Positions 20,032-41,351 are shown, counted from the first letter of the stretch. The stretch: DNA of 48,916 nucleotides from Colwelliaceae bacterium (GCA_023954655.1 JAGSHH010000003.1:1-48916); one strand, 5' to 3'. A program made the numbers and translations. The notes: generated by a model from the letters alone, not told the origin.

Positions 20032-20096
20032 CTATGATGTACATAGATAAGTCTGTCAGGTAATATCTTTTTAGTCTAACTAAAAGAGTTTATGTG

Positions 20097-21116
20097 ATGT
20101 CTAAAGCTACATCATTTGATATTGCCTATCAGGCTGGAGTTTCACAATCAACCGTTTCACGTGCACTACGTAATAGTCCGCTAGTGAATGAAGAAACACG
20201 TTTGAAAGTTCAAGCTATTGCGCAAGAGCTTAATTATAAAGTTGATAAAAATGCTAGTAACCTTCGAACTCAACAAAGTGACACTATTGCTTTGCTATTA
20301 TTTGAAGATCCTACCAATGATGACTCCTTAATCAATCCGTTTTTTTTATCAATGCTTGGCAGTATTACCCGTGCATGTTCAAAAAAAGGGTATGATTTAC
20401 TCGTTTCTTTCCAGCAACTTAGTGATGATTGGCATGCTGATTATGAAGACAGTAAAAAAGCAGATGGTTTAATTTTATTAGGCTACGGTGACTTTGTTGA
20501 TTACGAAGAAAAGCTTCATCAATTGAGCGAGCAAAATACCCACTTTATTCGTTGGGGTGCTAATGTTGATGATGACAATATTATTTCCGTTGGTTGTGAT
20601 AATTTCCATGGCGGTTATCAAGTAACAGAGCATGTTATTAAAAATGGTCGGGAAAAATTTGCTTTTCTTGGGGATGCCTCAAGCCACTCTCCTGAATTTC
20701 TTGAGCGATACAATGGTCATTGTAAAGCATTAACCGATAATAAGTTGTCTGTCATCAGTGAACTACAGGTTGATACGACTTTCAATGAAGAGTCAGGTTA
20801 TCAAGCTGCTTGTCAATTAATAGAAAAAAACATTTCTTTTGATGCTATTTTTTGTGCCAGCGATCTAATTGCTATTGGCGCAATGCGTGCACTACAAGAG
20901 CATAATATTAAAATACCTGAACAAGTGGCTGTGGTTGGTTTTGATGATATTGCCGTCGCAAGTTTTACTATTCCTGCGTTAACCACAGCAAAACAAGATA
21001 CGACATTAGCAGGTGAGCTATTAGTCGATAATTTAATCGCATTAATCAAAGGTGAGCCCGCTGGAACTACGTTAATGCCAACTACGCTTATTGTTCGTAA
21101 ATCCTGCGGTAGTTAA
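20097..21116 (+). CDS. LacI-family transcriptional regulator (maltodextrin locus)
   Basis: 339 aa from ATG 20097; the track uses the preceding GTG. The N-terminal HTH is SFDIAYQAGVSQSTVSRALRNSPLVNEETRLKVQAIAQELNYKVDKNASNLRTQQS, with the hinge helix following. The periplasmic-binding-protein-like sensor domain has AVVGFDDIAVASFTIPALTTAKQDT near the end. It is probably the MalR/AglR-type repressor of the adjoining starch genes, with a maltodextrin or glucose-related effector; this is inferred from position and from eight LacI-like palindromes with a central CG in the locus. A small hairpin (CTTTTTAGT...ACTAAAAG, 20067-20086) overlaps the ribosome site and could limit translation. No copy of the operator lies upstream of this gene. 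Confidence 0.93.
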   Translation: MSKATSFDIAYQAGVSQSTVSRALRNSPLVNEETRLKVQAIAQELNYKVDKNASNLRTQQSDTIALLLFEDPTNDDSLINPFFLSMLGSITRACSKKGYDLLVSFQQLSDDWHADYEDSKKADGLILLGYGDFVDYEEKLHQLSEQNTHFIRWGANVDDDNIISVGCDNFHGGYQVTEHVIKNGREKFAFLGDASSHSPEFLERYNGHCKALTDNKLSVISELQVDTTFNEESGYQAACQLIEKNISFDAIFCASDLIAIGAMRALQEHNIKIPEQVAVVGFDDIAVASFTIPALTTAKQDTTLAGELLVDNLIALIKGEPAGTTLMPTTLIVRKSCGS

Positions 21117-24758: not shown

Positions 24759-24827
24759 AATTGTTCCTGAGGGTATTATTTATCTCTTTTACCAGCATAA
24801 AAGGAGCGGCGTTAAATTGCAGCTACT

Positions 24828-33987: not shown

Positions 33988-34054
33988 GATAGTGCTTCCT
34001 ATATTGTTATTTTTTTCATCATGCTATGGCGTAGTTCATCTCAAGAATAGTGAC

Positions 34055-34068
34055 TACATACGTATTCA
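34055..34068. promoter_or_regulatory. LacI-family operator (large pullulanase, proximal)
   Basis: TACATACGTATTCA, one change from the consensus at position 2, 68 bp upstream of the large pullulanase start. Confidence 0.7.
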
Positions 34069-34175
34069 ATTTTAAGGTTCATGTTTATTAATTTGATAAT
34101 TATTTCTACTAAATGCGCTCAAAATTCATTTGATTTACGCGTCTAGGTCTTGAATTTAAAGAGTTGACTGGATTT

Positions 34176-34189
34176 TGCATACGTATTCA
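34176..34189. promoter_or_regulatory. LacI-family operator (large pullulanase, distal)
   Basis: TGCATACGTATTCA, 121 bp from the proximal site, about 11.5 helical turns. The pair could support looping. Confidence 0.7.
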
Positions 34190-34324
34190 ATCTGTCATCA
34201 ATTTGAATGGAACACCACTTTCTGCTTAATAAATGACCACACTTAATTGCGGTACATCTATTGATTTATCTGGCTTAGAGGTGTTTTTTTTGCAGAGACT
34301 AATTAATTAACTAAACTAATATGT

Positions 34325-34338
34325 TGAATACGTATGCA
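34325..34338. promoter_or_regulatory. LacI-family operator (TonB receptor, distal)
   Basis: TGAATACGTATGCA, the reverse-complement form of the TGCATACGTATTCA sites. It lies 29 bp from its neighbour. Confidence 0.75.
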
Positions 34339-34353
34339 TGATTGATGGTTCAT

Positions 34354-34367
34354 TGAATACGTATGCA
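34354..34367. promoter_or_regulatory. LacI-family operator (TonB receptor, proximal)
   Basis: TGAATACGTATGCA again, 157 bp before the receptor start codon. Confidence 0.75.
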
Positions 34368-34523
34368 TAGTGTATTTTTAAACTTGCGACCTCTTTATAT
34401 TAATGTCATCCACAACGAATTGTGGGTATAGCACTTACACATGAAACATATAAAAATTGCATCAGTCGTTCGGAACGCTGAATTATAAATATAAGATTAA
34501 GGATGATAGGGGAGATAGCACCA

Positions 34524-37322
34524 ATGTTAAATTTTAAGCCAAACAAGTTAACACTAGCGATACTTTCGACAGGCCTAATGGCGATGAGTTCATCATCGTT
34601 TGCTTATGCTGAAGAAAGTAATGCAAAAGAAGATGAAGTTGAAGTTATTGAAGTAAAAGGATTCCGAGGTAGTATTATAGAATCTATTAATACTAAGCGT
34701 TTTTCATCAGAAGTAGTTGAATCTATCTCTGCTGAGGATATCGGTAAATTACCTGACTCATCAATTGCCGAATCAATTGCCCGCCTACCAGGATTAACAG
34801 CTCAACGTCTTGATGGACGTGCCAGTAAAGTGAGTATTCGTGGCTTCGGTGAGAATGAAAGTGGTACAACTTTCAATGGTCGCGAACAAGTCTCAATTGG
34901 TGATAACCGTGGCGTAGAATTTGATTTATACCCTTCTGAAATTATGAGTGGCGTAACTGTTTATAAAACACCAAGTGCAAGCCTAGAAGCTGAAGGTATT
35001 GCTGGTATTGTTGATATGCAAACGGTTAAGCCACTTGGTCAAGATGAGCGTGTTATCCAATTTAACGGTTCACTAGAACAAACAAGCTTTGATAAATTAA
35101 ATCCAGATGGTAATGATGCTGGATTCCGTGGCACATTCTCTTATATGGACAAATTTGCAGACGACACTATTGGTGTTGCATTTGCTTATTCTACAATGAG
35201 TTCTCCAAACCAAGAAAAACGTTGGAACTCATGGGGCTACCCAGAGTTTACTTATGAAGATGGTTCAGCAGGTTCTATCTTAGGTGGTGCAAAACCATTT
35301 GTTCGTTCATCAACCCTTGAACGTGATTCAATGATGTTAGTGGTTGAAGCTGCTCCATCTGAAAAATTACATATGACATTCGATGCTTTATATGTAGATT
35401 TTACTGATGAGAAAATATTGCGTGGTATCGAAATACCATTTGCATGGGGTCAAGGTTCTATCTCTGGTGACACAGCAACTATTGATGCTGAGTCAGGTTT
35501 TGTAACGAGTGCTATCACTCAAGGTCAGCGTGTCGTTGTTCGTAATGATTATGAAGAAAGAAAAGCTGAATTAACTTCATTTGGTTTTAATTCAATTTAT
35601 GATTTAGATGATAATTGGCAGATTGAATTTGATGCGAGTTATTCACAAGTAGACCGTGATATTTGGTCAATTGAAAGTTATTCAGGTACTGGTCGTGGTG
35701 ATGGACGTGGTGTTGCAGATAACTTAGGTTATGAATTTAACGGCGGCAATACTGGCGCGCAATTCTCACACGATCTAGATTATAGTGATTTTAATCTGAT
35801 TCAATTAGGTGGCCCATTATCTTGGGGGTGGAGTAGCGCTCTTAATGATAAACATGGCGTAACGGGCACTGAATACGAAAATCAATTACAAGATGGTTTT
35901 ATTAATGCACCAAGTATCGATGATGAGTTAACAGCACTTAAATTAGCGGCGACACATGATTTAGATAATGATGTATTTGCTTCTGTTGAATTTGGCGCTT
36001 CATATCGCGAACGTGAAAAAACGAAAGAATCTGAAGGTTATTTCATGACACTTTCATCGTTTGATTACCCAAGTAATCCAGGTATGTTAATGGTACCAGA
36101 GCAATATCGTGAAGGTACTGCTAATTTAGACTTTATTGGTATGGGCAATATGATTGCATATGATACCAATGGTTTAATTAAAGATGGTTACTTTGATTTA
36201 TTAGCTGAAAGCTTAACAAATCCAACTCACGCAACTAAGTCTTGGACAGTTCAAGAAGAAGTTACTACGGCATTTATCCAGGGTAATATTGATACTGAAG
36301 TTGGTGGTTTTCCAGTTTCGGGTAATGTTGGTGTTCGTTACATCAATACTAAACAGTCATCTCAAGGTAATGCATTTAATACCGTAGATGGTTTAGTTGT
36401 GACTTCTCCTACTGACATTAGTCATGACTATTCTCACGTTTTACCTAGCCTTAACTTATCGTTAAGAATTGATGATCAACAAACGTTACGATTTGGTGCT
36501 GCGAAAACAATTTCTCGTGCTCGTTTAGATGAAATGAATGCATCTGTAAATGCTTCATATAATCAACAACCAGATGCTAATGGAAATCATTGGAGTGTAA
36601 GTGGTGGTAACCCAGCGCTTGAGCCAAAAGAAGCGGTTGGTCTTGATTTGTCTTATGAGAATTACTTCAGTGACGAAGGTTACTTCTCTGTAGCATTATT
36701 TAATAAAGAGCTTAGTGAATGGATTTTTGATGGTACTTTTGAAGTTGATATGTCAGGTATTGCTGATCCATCAACAGGTCAAATTCCAGCAAATTCATCA
36801 GGTTCAGGTAGCGGTAAAGTTAATGGTGGTGAAGGTTCTTTATGGGGTTACGAGCTATCACTTTCATTTCCATTCAAGATGATTGATGAAAGCCTTGACG
36901 GTTTTGGTTTAATTGCCAGCCACACTGCTGTTGAATCTGATCTTAAAGATCAAAATGATAATGAATATGAATTACCTGGTTTATCAGACAAGATACAAAG
37001 CTTAACTTTTTACTATGAAAAAGATGGTTTCCAAGCACGTGCAAGTATGCGTAAGCGTGGCAACTTTAAAGGTGATGTATACGGTTTAGGTTTCTCAACT
37101 AGTCAAGTAGATATCTTAGGTGAAACAATTTGGGATGCTCAAATTGGTTATGACTTTGGTGAAGCTGGAATGGAGAGCTTAGAAGGCTTATCAATTTTCT
37201 TCCAAGCACAAAACTTAACGGAAGAACCATTTACTTCATTACAAGGTGAAAACGCTTTACAAGTTCGTGATTATCAAGATTACGGTAGCACTTACTTGTT
37301 AGGTTTCAGTTATAAACTTTAA
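34524..37322 (+). CDS. TonB-dependent receptor, maltodextrin type (MalA-like)
   Basis: 932 aa from ATG 34524, chosen because an AGGGGAG site lies 9 bp upstream; the track start (34503) precedes that site. Signal peptide to about AYAEES, then a TonB-box-like EVEVIEVKGFRGSI, a plug domain (VVESISAEDIGKLPDSSIAESIARLPGLTAQRLDGRASKVSIRGFG...GIAGIVDMQT) and a 22-strand barrel ending in LGFSYKL. The plug wording is that of carbohydrate receptors described in Caulobacter (MalA) and Alteromonadales. It should import maltodextrins across the outer membrane with TonB-ExbBD energy. Two operators lie upstream. A hairpin terminator follows directly, before the halogenase-like gene. Confidence 0.95.
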   Translation: MLNFKPNKLTLAILSTGLMAMSSSSFAYAEESNAKEDEVEVIEVKGFRGSIIESINTKRFSSEVVESISAEDIGKLPDSSIAESIARLPGLTAQRLDGRASKVSIRGFGENESGTTFNGREQVSIGDNRGVEFDLYPSEIMSGVTVYKTPSASLEAEGIAGIVDMQTVKPLGQDERVIQFNGSLEQTSFDKLNPDGNDAGFRGTFSYMDKFADDTIGVAFAYSTMSSPNQEKRWNSWGYPEFTYEDGSAGSILGGAKPFVRSSTLERDSMMLVVEAAPSEKLHMTFDALYVDFTDEKILRGIEIPFAWGQGSISGDTATIDAESGFVTSAITQGQRVVVRNDYEERKAELTSFGFNSIYDLDDNWQIEFDASYSQVDRDIWSIESYSGTGRGDGRGVADNLGYEFNGGNTGAQFSHDLDYSDFNLIQLGGPLSWGWSSALNDKHGVTGTEYENQLQDGFINAPSIDDELTALKLAATHDLDNDVFASVEFGASYREREKTKESEGYFMTLSSFDYPSNPGMLMVPEQYREGTANLDFIGMGNMIAYDTNGLIKDGYFDLLAESLTNPTHATKSWTVQEEVTTAFIQGNIDTEVGGFPVSGNVGVRYINTKQSSQGNAFNTVDGLVVTSPTDISHDYSHVLPSLNLSLRIDDQQTLRFGAAKTISRARLDEMNASVNASYNQQPDANGNHWSVSGGNPALEPKEAVGLDLSYENYFSDEGYFSVALFNKELSEWIFDGTFEVDMSGIADPSTGQIPANSSGSGSGKVNGGEGSLWGYELSLSFPFKMIDESLDGFGLIASHTAVESDLKDQNDNEYELPGLSDKIQSLTFYYEKDGFQARASMRKRGNFKGDVYGLGFSTSQVDILGETIWDAQIGYDFGEAGMESLEGLSIFFQAQNLTEEPFTSLQGENALQVRDYQDYGSTYLLGFSYKL

Positions 37323-37340
37323 TGTAAAACAATGAATATT

Positions 37341-37381
37341 AAAGCCCTTGTGATGTAATATCTCAAGGGCTTTATTTTTTG
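37341..37381 (+). terminator. Intrinsic terminator between TonB receptor and halogenase-like gene
   Basis: Perfect 10-bp stem AAAGCCCTTG / CAAGGGCTTT, 13-base loop, then ATTTTTT. It ends 15 bp before the GTG start of the next gene, so that gene is either expressed by read-through or from a promoter hidden in this 73-bp gap. Confidence 0.8.
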
Positions 37382-37395
37382 ATAGAGGAAAAATT

Positions 37396-38898
37396 GTGGA
37401 TACTGAGATGAACACTAAGAAAATTCAAAATGTAGTGATTGTTGGTGGTGGCACCGCTGGCTGGGTAACCGCTGCATTAATGGTAAAAGTGTTAGGAAAA
37501 ACAATTAACATTACGCTGATTGAGTCTGACAAAATTGGCACTATTGGTGTTGGAGAAGCAACCATTCCGCCTATTATTCCTTTTAATAACGCTTTAGGGC
37601 TTGATGAAAAAGCATTTTTAAAAGCAACTAAAGGTACATTGAAGCTGGGTATTGAGTTTGAAAACTGGAAGCAAAAAGGTGATAAATACATGCACGCCTT
37701 TGGCGGCGTAGGTAAAAATTTTCCTTTTTGCGACTTTTATCATTTTTGGGTGAAAAGCCAACAATTAGGCTATGAATCTGAATTTGGTGATTTTTCTTTG
37801 AATTACCAAGCATCCAAAAAAAATAAGTTTGAAAAGCTTAATCGTATAGAAGGTACAAACTTATCGGGTATTGAGTACGCTTATCATTTTGATGCGGGCT
37901 TATATGCTAAATTCTTACGCTCTTTTTGTGAACCACTTGGTGTAAAGCGTATTGAAGGAATTATTAACAAAGTAAGTGTTGACCCTGATAACGGCAATAT
38001 TAAAAGCGTTACTCTAGATGATGGTAATAAAATAAGTGGTGACTTATTTATTGATTGTACAGGATTAAAAGCGTTACTTATCGAAGAAACATTAAGTACA
38101 GGTTATGACGACTGGTCACATTGGTTACCTTGTGATCGAGCAATGGCTCTACCTTGTGAAGCTACCAGCCCTATTTTGCCATATACACGTTCTATTGCGC
38201 ATGATGCTGGGTGGCAATGGCGTATACCGCTTCAACATAGAACAGGTAATGGTATTGTTTATTCAAGCAAATATATGAGTGATGAAGAAGCTAAAGCTGT
38301 TTTGATGTCGAACATTGATGGTAAACCTTTAGGTGAACCGAAAGTGATCCCTTTTAGAACAGGGCGCAGACGAAAACAATGGAATAAAAATGTTGTGGCA
38401 ATTGGTTTGTCGAGTGGATTTTTTGAACCATTAGAGTCAACTAACATACATCTGATTCAGACTGCGGCGACAAGGTTATTAAAATTTTTTCCACATCACG
38501 GTATTAAATATGAAGAAGTGAATGAATTTAACCGTCAATCACAAATTGAATCTGAACGAATGCGTGATTTTATTATTTTACATTACAAACAAAATCAACG
38601 TGATGACACTGACTTTTGGCGTGCTTGTCAGCGCATGGATGTACCGGAAACGTTAACTCAAAAAATGGCGTTGTTTGAGCAAACAGGTAAGATTTTTAGG
38701 GAACAAGATGAGTTGTTTACAGAGGTTGCATGGCAACAAGTGATGATTGGACAAGGACTTATCCCTAAAGATCATCATCCATTAGTAGATTCATTATCTA
38801 CAGAGCAGATCACTGAATTAATGGATAACTTGAAAACCATTATGCAGCGTTCAGTAGATAAAATGACCAGCCATGATGAGTTTTTAAATAAACTATAA
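37396..38898 (+). CDS. Tryptophan-halogenase-family flavoprotein
   Basis: 500 aa from GTG 37396 (AGAGG site 8 bp upstream; ATG 37408 lacks one). It has an FAD motif VVIVGGGTAGWVTAALMVKVLG, a GVGEATIPP segment, the active-site Lys region KATKGTLKLGIEFENWKQKG (Lys83 by position), and the halogenase motif GWQWRIP, followed by FFEPLESTNIHLIQTAATRLL. These are the marks of flavin-dependent tryptophan halogenases. In Alteromonadales and Caulobacterales such proteins are often encoded next to TonB receptors of sugar loci, with no known natural product; a role in modifying the receptor or an indole signal is only conjecture. Needs a flavin reductase partner, not seen here. Confidence 0.9.
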   Translation: MDTEMNTKKIQNVVIVGGGTAGWVTAALMVKVLGKTINITLIESDKIGTIGVGEATIPPIIPFNNALGLDEKAFLKATKGTLKLGIEFENWKQKGDKYMHAFGGVGKNFPFCDFYHFWVKSQQLGYESEFGDFSLNYQASKKNKFEKLNRIEGTNLSGIEYAYHFDAGLYAKFLRSFCEPLGVKRIEGIINKVSVDPDNGNIKSVTLDDGNKISGDLFIDCTGLKALLIEETLSTGYDDWSHWLPCDRAMALPCEATSPILPYTRSIAHDAGWQWRIPLQHRTGNGIVYSSKYMSDEEAKAVLMSNIDGKPLGEPKVIPFRTGRRRKQWNKNVVAIGLSSGFFEPLESTNIHLIQTAATRLLKFFPHHGIKYEEVNEFNRQSQIESERMRDFIILHYKQNQRDDTDFWRACQRMDVPETLTQKMALFEQTGKIFREQDELFTEVAWQQVMIGQGLIPKDHHPLVDSLSTEQITELMDNLKTIMQRSVDKMTSHDEFLNKL

Positions 38899-38969: not shown

Positions 38970-41351
38970 TTATTTGAAGTTTACTTGCAAAGCTAAACCG
39001 AACATTACTGGCTTATCTAAATACTGCAAACGACTAGGGAGGCTTCCATTTGAGCCTGTACTGACATAATATCGATTACTGGAGTTAAGTAGGTTTTCAA
39101 CGTATAGCTTGACCTGCACTTCAGTAGAATCATTTCCTGTCCAAAAATAAGTTAAAGAAGCGTTTACATTATAATCGATCTCATATGCATCCTCTTTCTC
39201 AAGTAATTGACGCTCATTGAGAAAAATTTGATATTGTTCTTCAAAGGCTATTTTTTCGTCAGTTGAAAGAGTATTACGATCAAAATTATTATAAGCGCTT
39301 TGGTACATTCTCATTTCATCATAAGAACCTTCGTAATCCCAAAAAACTTGAGCACTTATATGTGCTTTTAGTTTTTGATCCATAAATGTTTGGGTATATA
39401 AAAATTTACTGATGTTCTTTGACCAATTATTGAGCCCGTCACCATAGCTTTCTAATAAAAGAGGAATATCACGTCGAGTATTATAATAGTAATCAGCAAA
39501 AGAAATATTATTTCTATTTTTTCCTGTTTTCAAATCATCGTTCATTTTGATATTGAGTGGATTCATAAACGCGTGATTAAAAGTTAGCTCGAGGTTTTTA
39601 TGTTTGTAACTTGCCGTAAATTCTATACCAAGCAATTCAGTTTTAGAAAGAAACTCAAGGTACTCACCAGTGAAACCAACGGCATTGCTGTTGTTATAAT
39701 ATCCGCGCACATTTAGAGAGGTATTCTCTAAGCTAGTGTTTGAATATGACAACTCGACACTGTCTAGTGTTTCGTGTTTTGAGTTGTTACCAGCTAAATC
39801 ATTTAGGTACTGTGCACGGAGTGGCATCATGCGTTGCCCTCTTTGAATACTACTAACTAAGGTAGAGTTTTCATCGAGTGTTGAAATCAACGAGAATCGA
39901 GGAGAAAACATTCCATCTGCAGCATCAGAATAATCATAGCGATGTGCATAAATGAGTTCTTGTTGAGGTGAAAATGTATATTTAGATTCTAATAAATGAC
40001 TATGTGTAACAATACGAATGCCTTTGCCGACTTCTACTGCATTTTCAGTATTTGGCCTGCCATCGAGTGAAAGATCTTGTAAATAAGCACTCGTATCAAT
40101 ACTACTAATAATATCGACACCTTCTTTTATCCATAAATGATCGCTATCTTTACCCCAAGGAGCGCCGATAAAAATATTGCTGTACTCATAACCAGTAATT
40201 AAGTTGAAGGTATCATTAAATTTATAGTCATATAAAGCAGAAAGTGTCGCTCTATCTTGTGAAAACGCATACTGTCTGATATTGCTAATATCATCTTCGG
40301 GGAGTTGTTGGTTTTCAGGTCTGTAGCGAATATATTCTTGAGAGTCTAATGTCAAAGATGTCAAAATTGATGAATCATCCGTTAAAGTAAAACGATAATC
40401 TGAAGACGCTATTAAACTGCGAGTTTGAATATTTCTGAAATTGGCGAGGTCTGAAGGATTTCCCTCTTCATCAATTTTATATTTTTTATCATTAAATGCA
40501 TGTGTACGTCCTGATTGTGTATATCGAAGCCAAACATTGAAATTTTCACCATAATTGACATCGAGGTGAGCTTTTATTTGGGCGCGCCCAAAACTGTCTG
40601 CTTGATATTCTTGTGGTGGGGTTGTAGCTGATTGTCCTTTACCAACAAATCGTATATCGGTAGGCTCATTCGGATTCATTTTATAGTAATCAGGAGAGGA
40701 AAGGCCATCGGTTTCTCGGTAGGAAATAAACCCATATATTCCCCAATCATCAATCTTTTCTGAATATTGTAAATTGACACCTTTGCTTTGATAGGTGCTG
40801 TTATTGGCAAGACCCAAAGACCATTTTGGTAACTTATTTTTAGCACTTTTAGAAATAATATTGATGACACCGGCAACGGCTCCAGTACCATACGTAACAG
40901 AGCCAGGCCCACTGATAACTTCAACTTGTTCAATATCACCAAGTTCCCATTGGTCTATTTCGGTAATCGCCCCCTCATAAACCATATTGGTAACATTTTT
41001 ACCGTTAACTAGTATTAATAATTTGTAATTTTCTGCTGCAATTTGTCCACGTAAGCCAATCTTTTCGCCTTCTGAGTGAGTCATTAACATCATGCCTGGT
41101 ACATGTTGTTCAAGAAGATGAGATAAATTTTTTGCACCAGAAAGCTCGATACTTTGTTTATTAATTATCGTAATAGCTGAAGCAGATTTACTTGTTGAAC
41201 TGCCAATTAAACTACCCGTTTTTATTTTTATTTTTGAAAGCTCTTCTAAAGACAATTCAAAAATGTCATCTTCAGAATAGTTAGGGTTTGTTGATGCTAT
41301 TGAATACGAGCAAAGGGGTGTTAGCAATATCCATATTAAAAATTTGTTCAT
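38970..41351 (-). CDS. TonB-dependent outer-membrane receptor, substrate unknown
   Basis: 793 aa. Signal peptide MNKFLIWILLTPLCSYSIAS; then FELSLEELSKIKIKTGSLIGSSTSKSASAITIINKQSIELSGAKNLSHLLEQHVPGMMLM begins the plug, with the LILVNGKNV and IEQVEVISGPGSVTYGTGAVAGVINIISK segments of colicin I/siderophore-type receptors. The barrel ends VMFGLALQVNFK. This differs clearly from the MalA-like receptor at 34524. No LacI-type operator precedes it, and a Fur-like half site overlaps its leader, so it may not belong to the starch regulon and could import iron chelates, vitamins or another compound. It is convergent with the halogenase-like gene. Confidence 0.9.
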   Translation of the reverse strand: MNKFLIWILLTPLCSYSIASTNPNYSEDDIFELSLEELSKIKIKTGSLIGSSTSKSASAITIINKQSIELSGAKNLSHLLEQHVPGMMLMTHSEGEKIGLRGQIAAENYKLLILVNGKNVTNMVYEGAITEIDQWELGDIEQVEVISGPGSVTYGTGAVAGVINIISKSAKNKLPKWSLGLANNSTYQSKGVNLQYSEKIDDWGIYGFISYRETDGLSSPDYYKMNPNEPTDIRFVGKGQSATTPPQEYQADSFGRAQIKAHLDVNYGENFNVWLRYTQSGRTHAFNDKKYKIDEEGNPSDLANFRNIQTRSLIASSDYRFTLTDDSSILTSLTLDSQEYIRYRPENQQLPEDDISNIRQYAFSQDRATLSALYDYKFNDTFNLITGYEYSNIFIGAPWGKDSDHLWIKEGVDIISSIDTSAYLQDLSLDGRPNTENAVEVGKGIRIVTHSHLLESKYTFSPQQELIYAHRYDYSDAADGMFSPRFSLISTLDENSTLVSSIQRGQRMMPLRAQYLNDLAGNNSKHETLDSVELSYSNTSLENTSLNVRGYYNNSNAVGFTGEYLEFLSKTELLGIEFTASYKHKNLELTFNHAFMNPLNIKMNDDLKTGKNRNNISFADYYYNTRRDIPLLLESYGDGLNNWSKNISKFLYTQTFMDQKLKAHISAQVFWDYEGSYDEMRMYQSAYNNFDRNTLSTDEKIAFEEQYQIFLNERQLLEKEDAYEIDYNVNASLTYFWTGNDSTEVQVKLYVENLLNSSNRYYVSTGSNGSLPSRLQYLDKPVMFGLALQVNFK

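Follow-up and report, generated by a model that had tools for sequence, protein, structure and literature searches.

A putative group C halogenase gene paired with a maltodextrin TonB-dependent receptor behind a conserved terminator-like hairpin in a Colwelliaceae genome

Flavin-dependent halogenases of the PF04820 family are classically tied to secondary metabolism. In published in vitro assays, free indoles were brominated by BrvH and by Xanthomonas relatives (PMC5945002, PMC7336383), and for BrvH and Xcc4156 the substrate site was found to be open and the native substrate was stated to be unknown (PMC7336383; for the substrate also PMC5945002). The Trp4 substrate-lid motifs and the non-tryptophan group C are used here as defined in PMC8269204. 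TonB occurs nowhere in the text of these three papers, and no receptor partner is discussed in them. On the receptor side, the maltodextrin locus of Shewanella (OmpMal, MalR; PMC2996990) has been described, and the main text of that paper on the MalR regulon does not mention a halogenase. In a metatranscriptome study, differentially expressed halogenase transcripts were partly assigned to Colwellia, without receptor context (PMC11337851). Our literature search among open-access papers found none describing a link between halogenases and TonB receptors, which is not proof that none exists.

We analyzed a stretch of 48,916 nucleotides from a Colwelliaceae genome (hereafter the window), in which the following features bear on such a link:

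34054..34368, + strand: four LacI-type palindromes TTGMATACGTATKCAA at 34054, 34175, 34324 and 34353, likely operators of a maltodextrin regulon (motif scan)
34503..37322, + strand: OmpMal-related TonB-dependent receptor, TIGR01782 (TonB-Xanth-Caul) subfamily (TIGR01782 profile and starch/maltodextrin context)
37341..37380, + strand: terminator-like hairpin of the intrinsic type, AAAGCCCTTG...CAAGGGCTTT with ATTTTTT directly after it, in the receptor-halogenase gap (folding, conservation, covariation)
37384..37389, + strand: Shine-Dalgarno-like AGAGGA, 6 nt 5' of the GTG (direct reading of the sequence)
37396..38898, + strand: putative flavin-dependent halogenase (PF04820) from the indole-type sub-group with an open site; 500 aa from a GTG start, with intact catalytic residues and no apparent signal peptide (profile, structure matches, motifs)

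The receptor scored 563.4 bits against the TIGR01782 profile (curated cut-off 310), which places it in this subfamily, and its final stop-codon base is position 37322, from which the original prediction had started its feature. It is related to the Shewanella maltodextrin receptor OmpMal, and its starch/maltodextrin gene context is conserved among relatives. Starch hydrolases and LacI-type regulation are likewise common to this locus and the Shewanella one, and in several Shewanella loci (L077-L079, L082, L083) the gene after the receptor is the orthologous halogenase. The Shewanella regulator is MalR, whereas the regulator here is a candidate of uncertain identity. The genes annotated around the halogenase are pullulanases, a cyclomaltodextrinase, GH97, MFS, amylases, a second TonB-dependent receptor and GNAT. 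As had been claimed before, no biosynthetic cluster surrounds the gene, since no secondary-metabolite genes were seen among its annotated neighbours. The second receptor (38970-41351, - strand) is convergent with the halogenase, obtained a Pfam score for the plug domain only, and has no operator motif upstream.

The halogenase gene adds a further member to an established enzyme family. PF04820 spans the full protein (E=3.1e-189, 630 bits, profile positions 1-456 of 458), and the FAD motif GGGTAGW at 17-23, Lys83, WQWRIP at 273-278 and Glu347/Ser348 are all present, so that the family and the FAD, Lys and WxWxIP motifs had been read correctly. Of 138 homologues, 137 retain the catalytic Lys and Glu. 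The sub-group had been named wrongly, since a 'tryptophan-halogenase-like' protein was predicted and the sequence groups with non-tryptophan indole-type brominases. It carries ATIPPI and HAFGG, corresponding to the (A/S)T(I/V)Pxx and HxFxx motifs of group C, and by inspection the Trp4 substrate-lid motif (YYxxF...NFW...YY or YHGxxxYS) of the tryptophan 5/6/7-halogenases is absent; by these motifs it is placed with the non-tryptophan group C indole brominases BrvH and Xcc4156. Similarity to both extends over the full length, with the FAD, Lys, Glu/Ser, WxWxIP, ATIPPI and HAFGG motifs in common (PMC5945002, PMC7336383, PMC8269204). Among solved structures, the closest is PDB 9luq, titled 'Tryptophan halogenase' (683 bits over residues 8-500), for which our literature search found no describing paper, followed by Xcc4156 (6y1w, 527 bits) and BrvH (6frl, 474 bits). 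The true tryptophan halogenases PrnA, RebH, PyrH and Thal share the enzyme family and the catalytic residues, but scored lower (about 233-278 bits), and their substrate-lid motifs (PMC8269204) are missing here. The protein is thus probably a brominase of the BrvH/Xcc4156 kind.

The GTG start also held, because the ATG of a 90%-identical orthologue (L025) falls on the same codon and L026 and L027 have GTG close by. As the Rossmann strand begins at about residue 12, there is no space for a signal peptide, and the halogenase is presumably cytoplasmic. Comparison with L025 gave a dN/dS of about 0.035, a rough value because dS is high, which points to strong purifying selection. We infer that the gene encodes a catalytically intact halogenase, whose activity and halide choice are predicted from its motifs and relatives. 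The protein might instead have ceased to halogenate and have taken on a role coupled to receptor production, as flavin oxidase, monooxygenase or redox sensor: no characterised receptor-linked paralogue was found, and in some distant paralogues WxWxIP has lost its Pro or the active-site Ser is gone. However, Lys, Glu, Ser and WxWxIP are intact throughout the clade of this halogenase and its nearest characterised relatives brominate (PMC7336383), and we consider such a loss of function very unlikely.

The original prediction had called the link to sugar receptors unexplained; the pairing of receptor and halogenase is a general rule in these bacteria and not an isolated oddity. Nearly all of 80 relatives from GTDB genomes, chosen by halogenase similarity, are immediately preceded on their own strand by a receptor of this type, and usually a pullulanase, cyclomaltodextrinase, alpha-glucosidase or GH97 gene lies nearby. 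Across 248 genomes of the order, a halogenase lies within 1 kb downstream of all receptor orthologues scoring at least 770 bits (29/29, counting the receptor of the window), and follows 7 of the 13 weaker ones (<770 bits). Of the 44 strong halogenases in eight relatives, 43 are at most 10 kb from a TIGR01782 receptor (41 downstream on the same strand), for which random placement would yield about 1-2 of 44 by our own estimate. In the reverse view, 22 of 51 receptors have no nearby halogenase. A second, longer receptor of the same subfamily (about 1000 aa) stands beside a pullulanase without halogenase in L133, L134, L136, L138, L139 and L141 and forms a natural unpaired control. The receptor family was present in 24 of 26 halogenase-bearing genomes of a phylum sample (Fisher p = 2e-20, only a guide because genomes of one clade are not independent). 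Outside the order, a receptor is no more than 10 kb away for at least 43 of 65 halogenases, a lower bound because scoring covered only four receptors in each genome; in 17 of those pairs the genes are on opposite strands.

The draft genome itself (about 81% complete) contains 16 PF04820 matches, of which 14 are on seven receptor-bearing contigs, and the neighbours on its receptor-halogenase contigs include GH16, phosphoglucose isomerase and GH18 genes. Two contigs on which PF04820 occurs only as fragments carry GH20 and GH3 genes. A tree of 98 halogenases was labelled by the class of the neighbouring receptor; the labels need 18 changes, compared with 43.3 after shuffling, and none of 200 shuffles came as low. 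Within one genome, paralogues belong to different receptor-class clades. The halogenases therefore cluster by receptor class and not by species, although the clustering is somewhat inflated because the maltodextrin set was picked partly by similarity. The contig of one GH16-linked receptor carries a very divergent PF04820 paralogue (L009:8921-10393, - strand; branch length above 3) that is arranged in tandem with two normal copies.

These distributions bear on a reading in which the halogenase acts on a diffusible indole or phenol derivative made under sugar plenty for competition or signalling, and is linked to the receptor only for sugar-dependent regulation. The bromination of free indoles by BrvH and Xanthomonas relatives and the classical role of PF04820 in secondary metabolism speak for it. 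But biosynthetic genes are not found nearby, 14 of the 16 matches in one genome are on receptor contigs, and receptor-class-specific clades would be unexpected for one shared metabolite. We regard a diffusible target as unlikely, yet to be taken seriously.

Receptor and halogenase are separated by a gap of 73 nt, in which a strong hairpin with a T tract had been predicted and was recovered by folding (-19.7 kcal/mol, z = -4.1, 0 of 200 shuffles as good). Its arms are perfect, 10 nt each (37341-37350 and 37364-37373), with a 13-nt middle that exceeds the 3-8 loop limit of a simple terminator consensus scan, and for this reason the scan did not list it. With a stable GC-rich hairpin, a T tract directly 3' and covariation, it has the sequence features of an intrinsic (Rho-independent) terminator. 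A terminator-like hairpin was found in 71 or 73 of 74 receptor-halogenase gaps of maltodextrin loci (two analyses; 96-99%) and in 23 of 25 such gaps in the eight relatives and the own genome. For gaps after the halogenase the counts are 5 of 31 (16%; maltodextrin loci) and 5 of 19 (eight genomes and own). As 39-46% of other same-strand gaps also have such a hairpin, its presence alone would be weak, and the weight of the evidence lies in the rate of 92-99%, the covariation and the stem motif. A stem resembling GCCCTTG...CAAGGGC is shared by 52 of the 96 receptor-halogenase hairpins, against 0 of 117 others; it is largely limited to the maltodextrin class, and the hairpins of other receptor classes differ in sequence. 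Across 32 distinct hairpins, standard pairs make up 93% of pair cells and both sides have changed in 9 of the 14 stem pairs; none of 500 shuffles and none of the slid controls reached this covariation. A repeated genomic element was considered and rejected, because the exact motif occurs once in the genome; no Rfam family was found at the gap. From its enrichment, stem motif, covariation and single genomic copy, the terminator seems to have been kept by selection within the receptor-halogenase unit rather than to be there by accident. The conserved order of receptor, terminator and halogenase that the original prediction had asked for is thus seen in the relatives.

Upstream of the receptor, TTGMATACGTATKCAA and its variants are enriched in the window, with 10 matches at up to three mismatches against 2.1 expected. 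Similar palindromes are also located at 24827, 29656, 43881 and 43920 in other intergenic regions of the starch locus, matches with at most one mismatch are confined to this locus within the whole genome, and the motif is present upstream of several orthologous receptors. Shared operator-like sites before the promoters of a locus are the sequence mark of a LacI-family maltodextrin regulon. In all, four intergenic regions of the starch locus bear the palindromes, which essentially define a local regulon. The gene at 20094-21116 is a candidate regulator of the LacI family, with LacI domains found and no equivalog cut-off reached.

The gap between receptor and halogenase contains no operator motif. 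A promoter within it, named earlier as an observation that would speak against read-through, was sought by sequence scan and rejected, as no promoter-like site was found and just 15 nt lie between the T-tract and the GTG. Since the gap has neither kind of site, read-through from the receptor promoter is the best model for expression of the halogenase, as had been proposed, and this read-through is probably partial. The two genes might alternatively be a passive, horizontally moved cassette, with a hairpin that merely ends a monocistronic receptor unit and a poorly expressed halogenase. The terminator does stand between receptor and halogenase, and generic terminators abound in these genomes; but the strong purifying selection on the halogenase, the gene order kept in 29 of 29 orthologues and a gap devoid of an own promoter-like or operator site make a passive cassette highly improbable.

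We therefore favour, at slightly better than even confidence, a joint model in which an intact cytoplasmic halogenase is dedicated to the maltodextrin receptor, is expressed by read-through and has an aromatic target tied to the receptor. It builds on the gene and its motifs, the structure and covariation of the terminator, the operators, the conserved pairing and the clustering by receptor class. Transcription would start at the LacI-regulated receptor promoter, and the conserved terminator in the gap would pass only a fraction of the transcripts, so that the receptor would be made in bulk and the halogenase in catalytic amounts. In the most speculative step, the halogenase would act oxidatively on a receptor-tied aromatic target. 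An indole or phenol side chain within a peptide or protein would be the likeliest such target, ahead of a free secondary metabolite. Against this model, the halogenase is presumably cytoplasmic and the receptor is exported.

Other receptor-halogenase units of the own and related genomes add SapC, Cupin_8 and DUF6445 genes, of which the Cupin_8 and DUF6445 partners are absent from the maltodextrin locus here, a further point against the model. The Cupin_8 proteins of those units resemble FIH and JMJD5, which hydroxylate protein side chains. DUF6445 (PF20043; L014:3380-4861, L122:18405-19109, L106:3755-4489) has an invariant HxD, a distal H and an R (conserved residues H116, D118, H206 and R224, an HxD...H...R pattern), which suggests an uncharacterised family of 2OG-Fe(II) oxygenases. 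The oxygenase likeness of both partners makes a protein- or peptide-directed oxidative modification plausible. Across classes, no aromatic residue was found that all paired receptors have and unpaired ones lack, so a single conserved receptor target is unsupported. At L014:3380-4861, DUF6445 is fused to SapC (PF07277); in the predicted structure the SapC block (residues 1-250) reached a pLDDT of about 87-98 and the DUF6445 part was poor. As a PDB fold search with this whole two-domain model gave no significant match, the fold of the SapC domain may be undescribed.

The best-supported statement is that a receptor-dedicated, apparently intact halogenase is probably read through behind its receptor, and that an aromatic target linked to this receptor is more likely than a free metabolite; the oxygenase-like partners argue for a protein target, and the lack of a universal receptor aromatic argues against one. 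A bolder and clearly unlikely proposal is that TIGR01782 receptors are modified post-translationally, in that class-specific cytoplasmic halogenases would brominate or chlorinate aromatic side chains on the receptor or on a partner peptide, FIH-like and DUF6445 oxygenases would join in other units, and the leaky conserved terminator would set the ratio of enzyme to receptor. If true, receptor modification would give group C halogenases their missing native substrate. The conserved hairpin provides a clear and testable case of control of a receptor-to-enzyme ratio by an intercistronic terminator. Group C halogenase genes here almost always partner one receptor subfamily and are specialised by its classes, and this pairing and specialisation indicate where the native substrate may be looked for, namely in the receptor, its cargo or its regulation.
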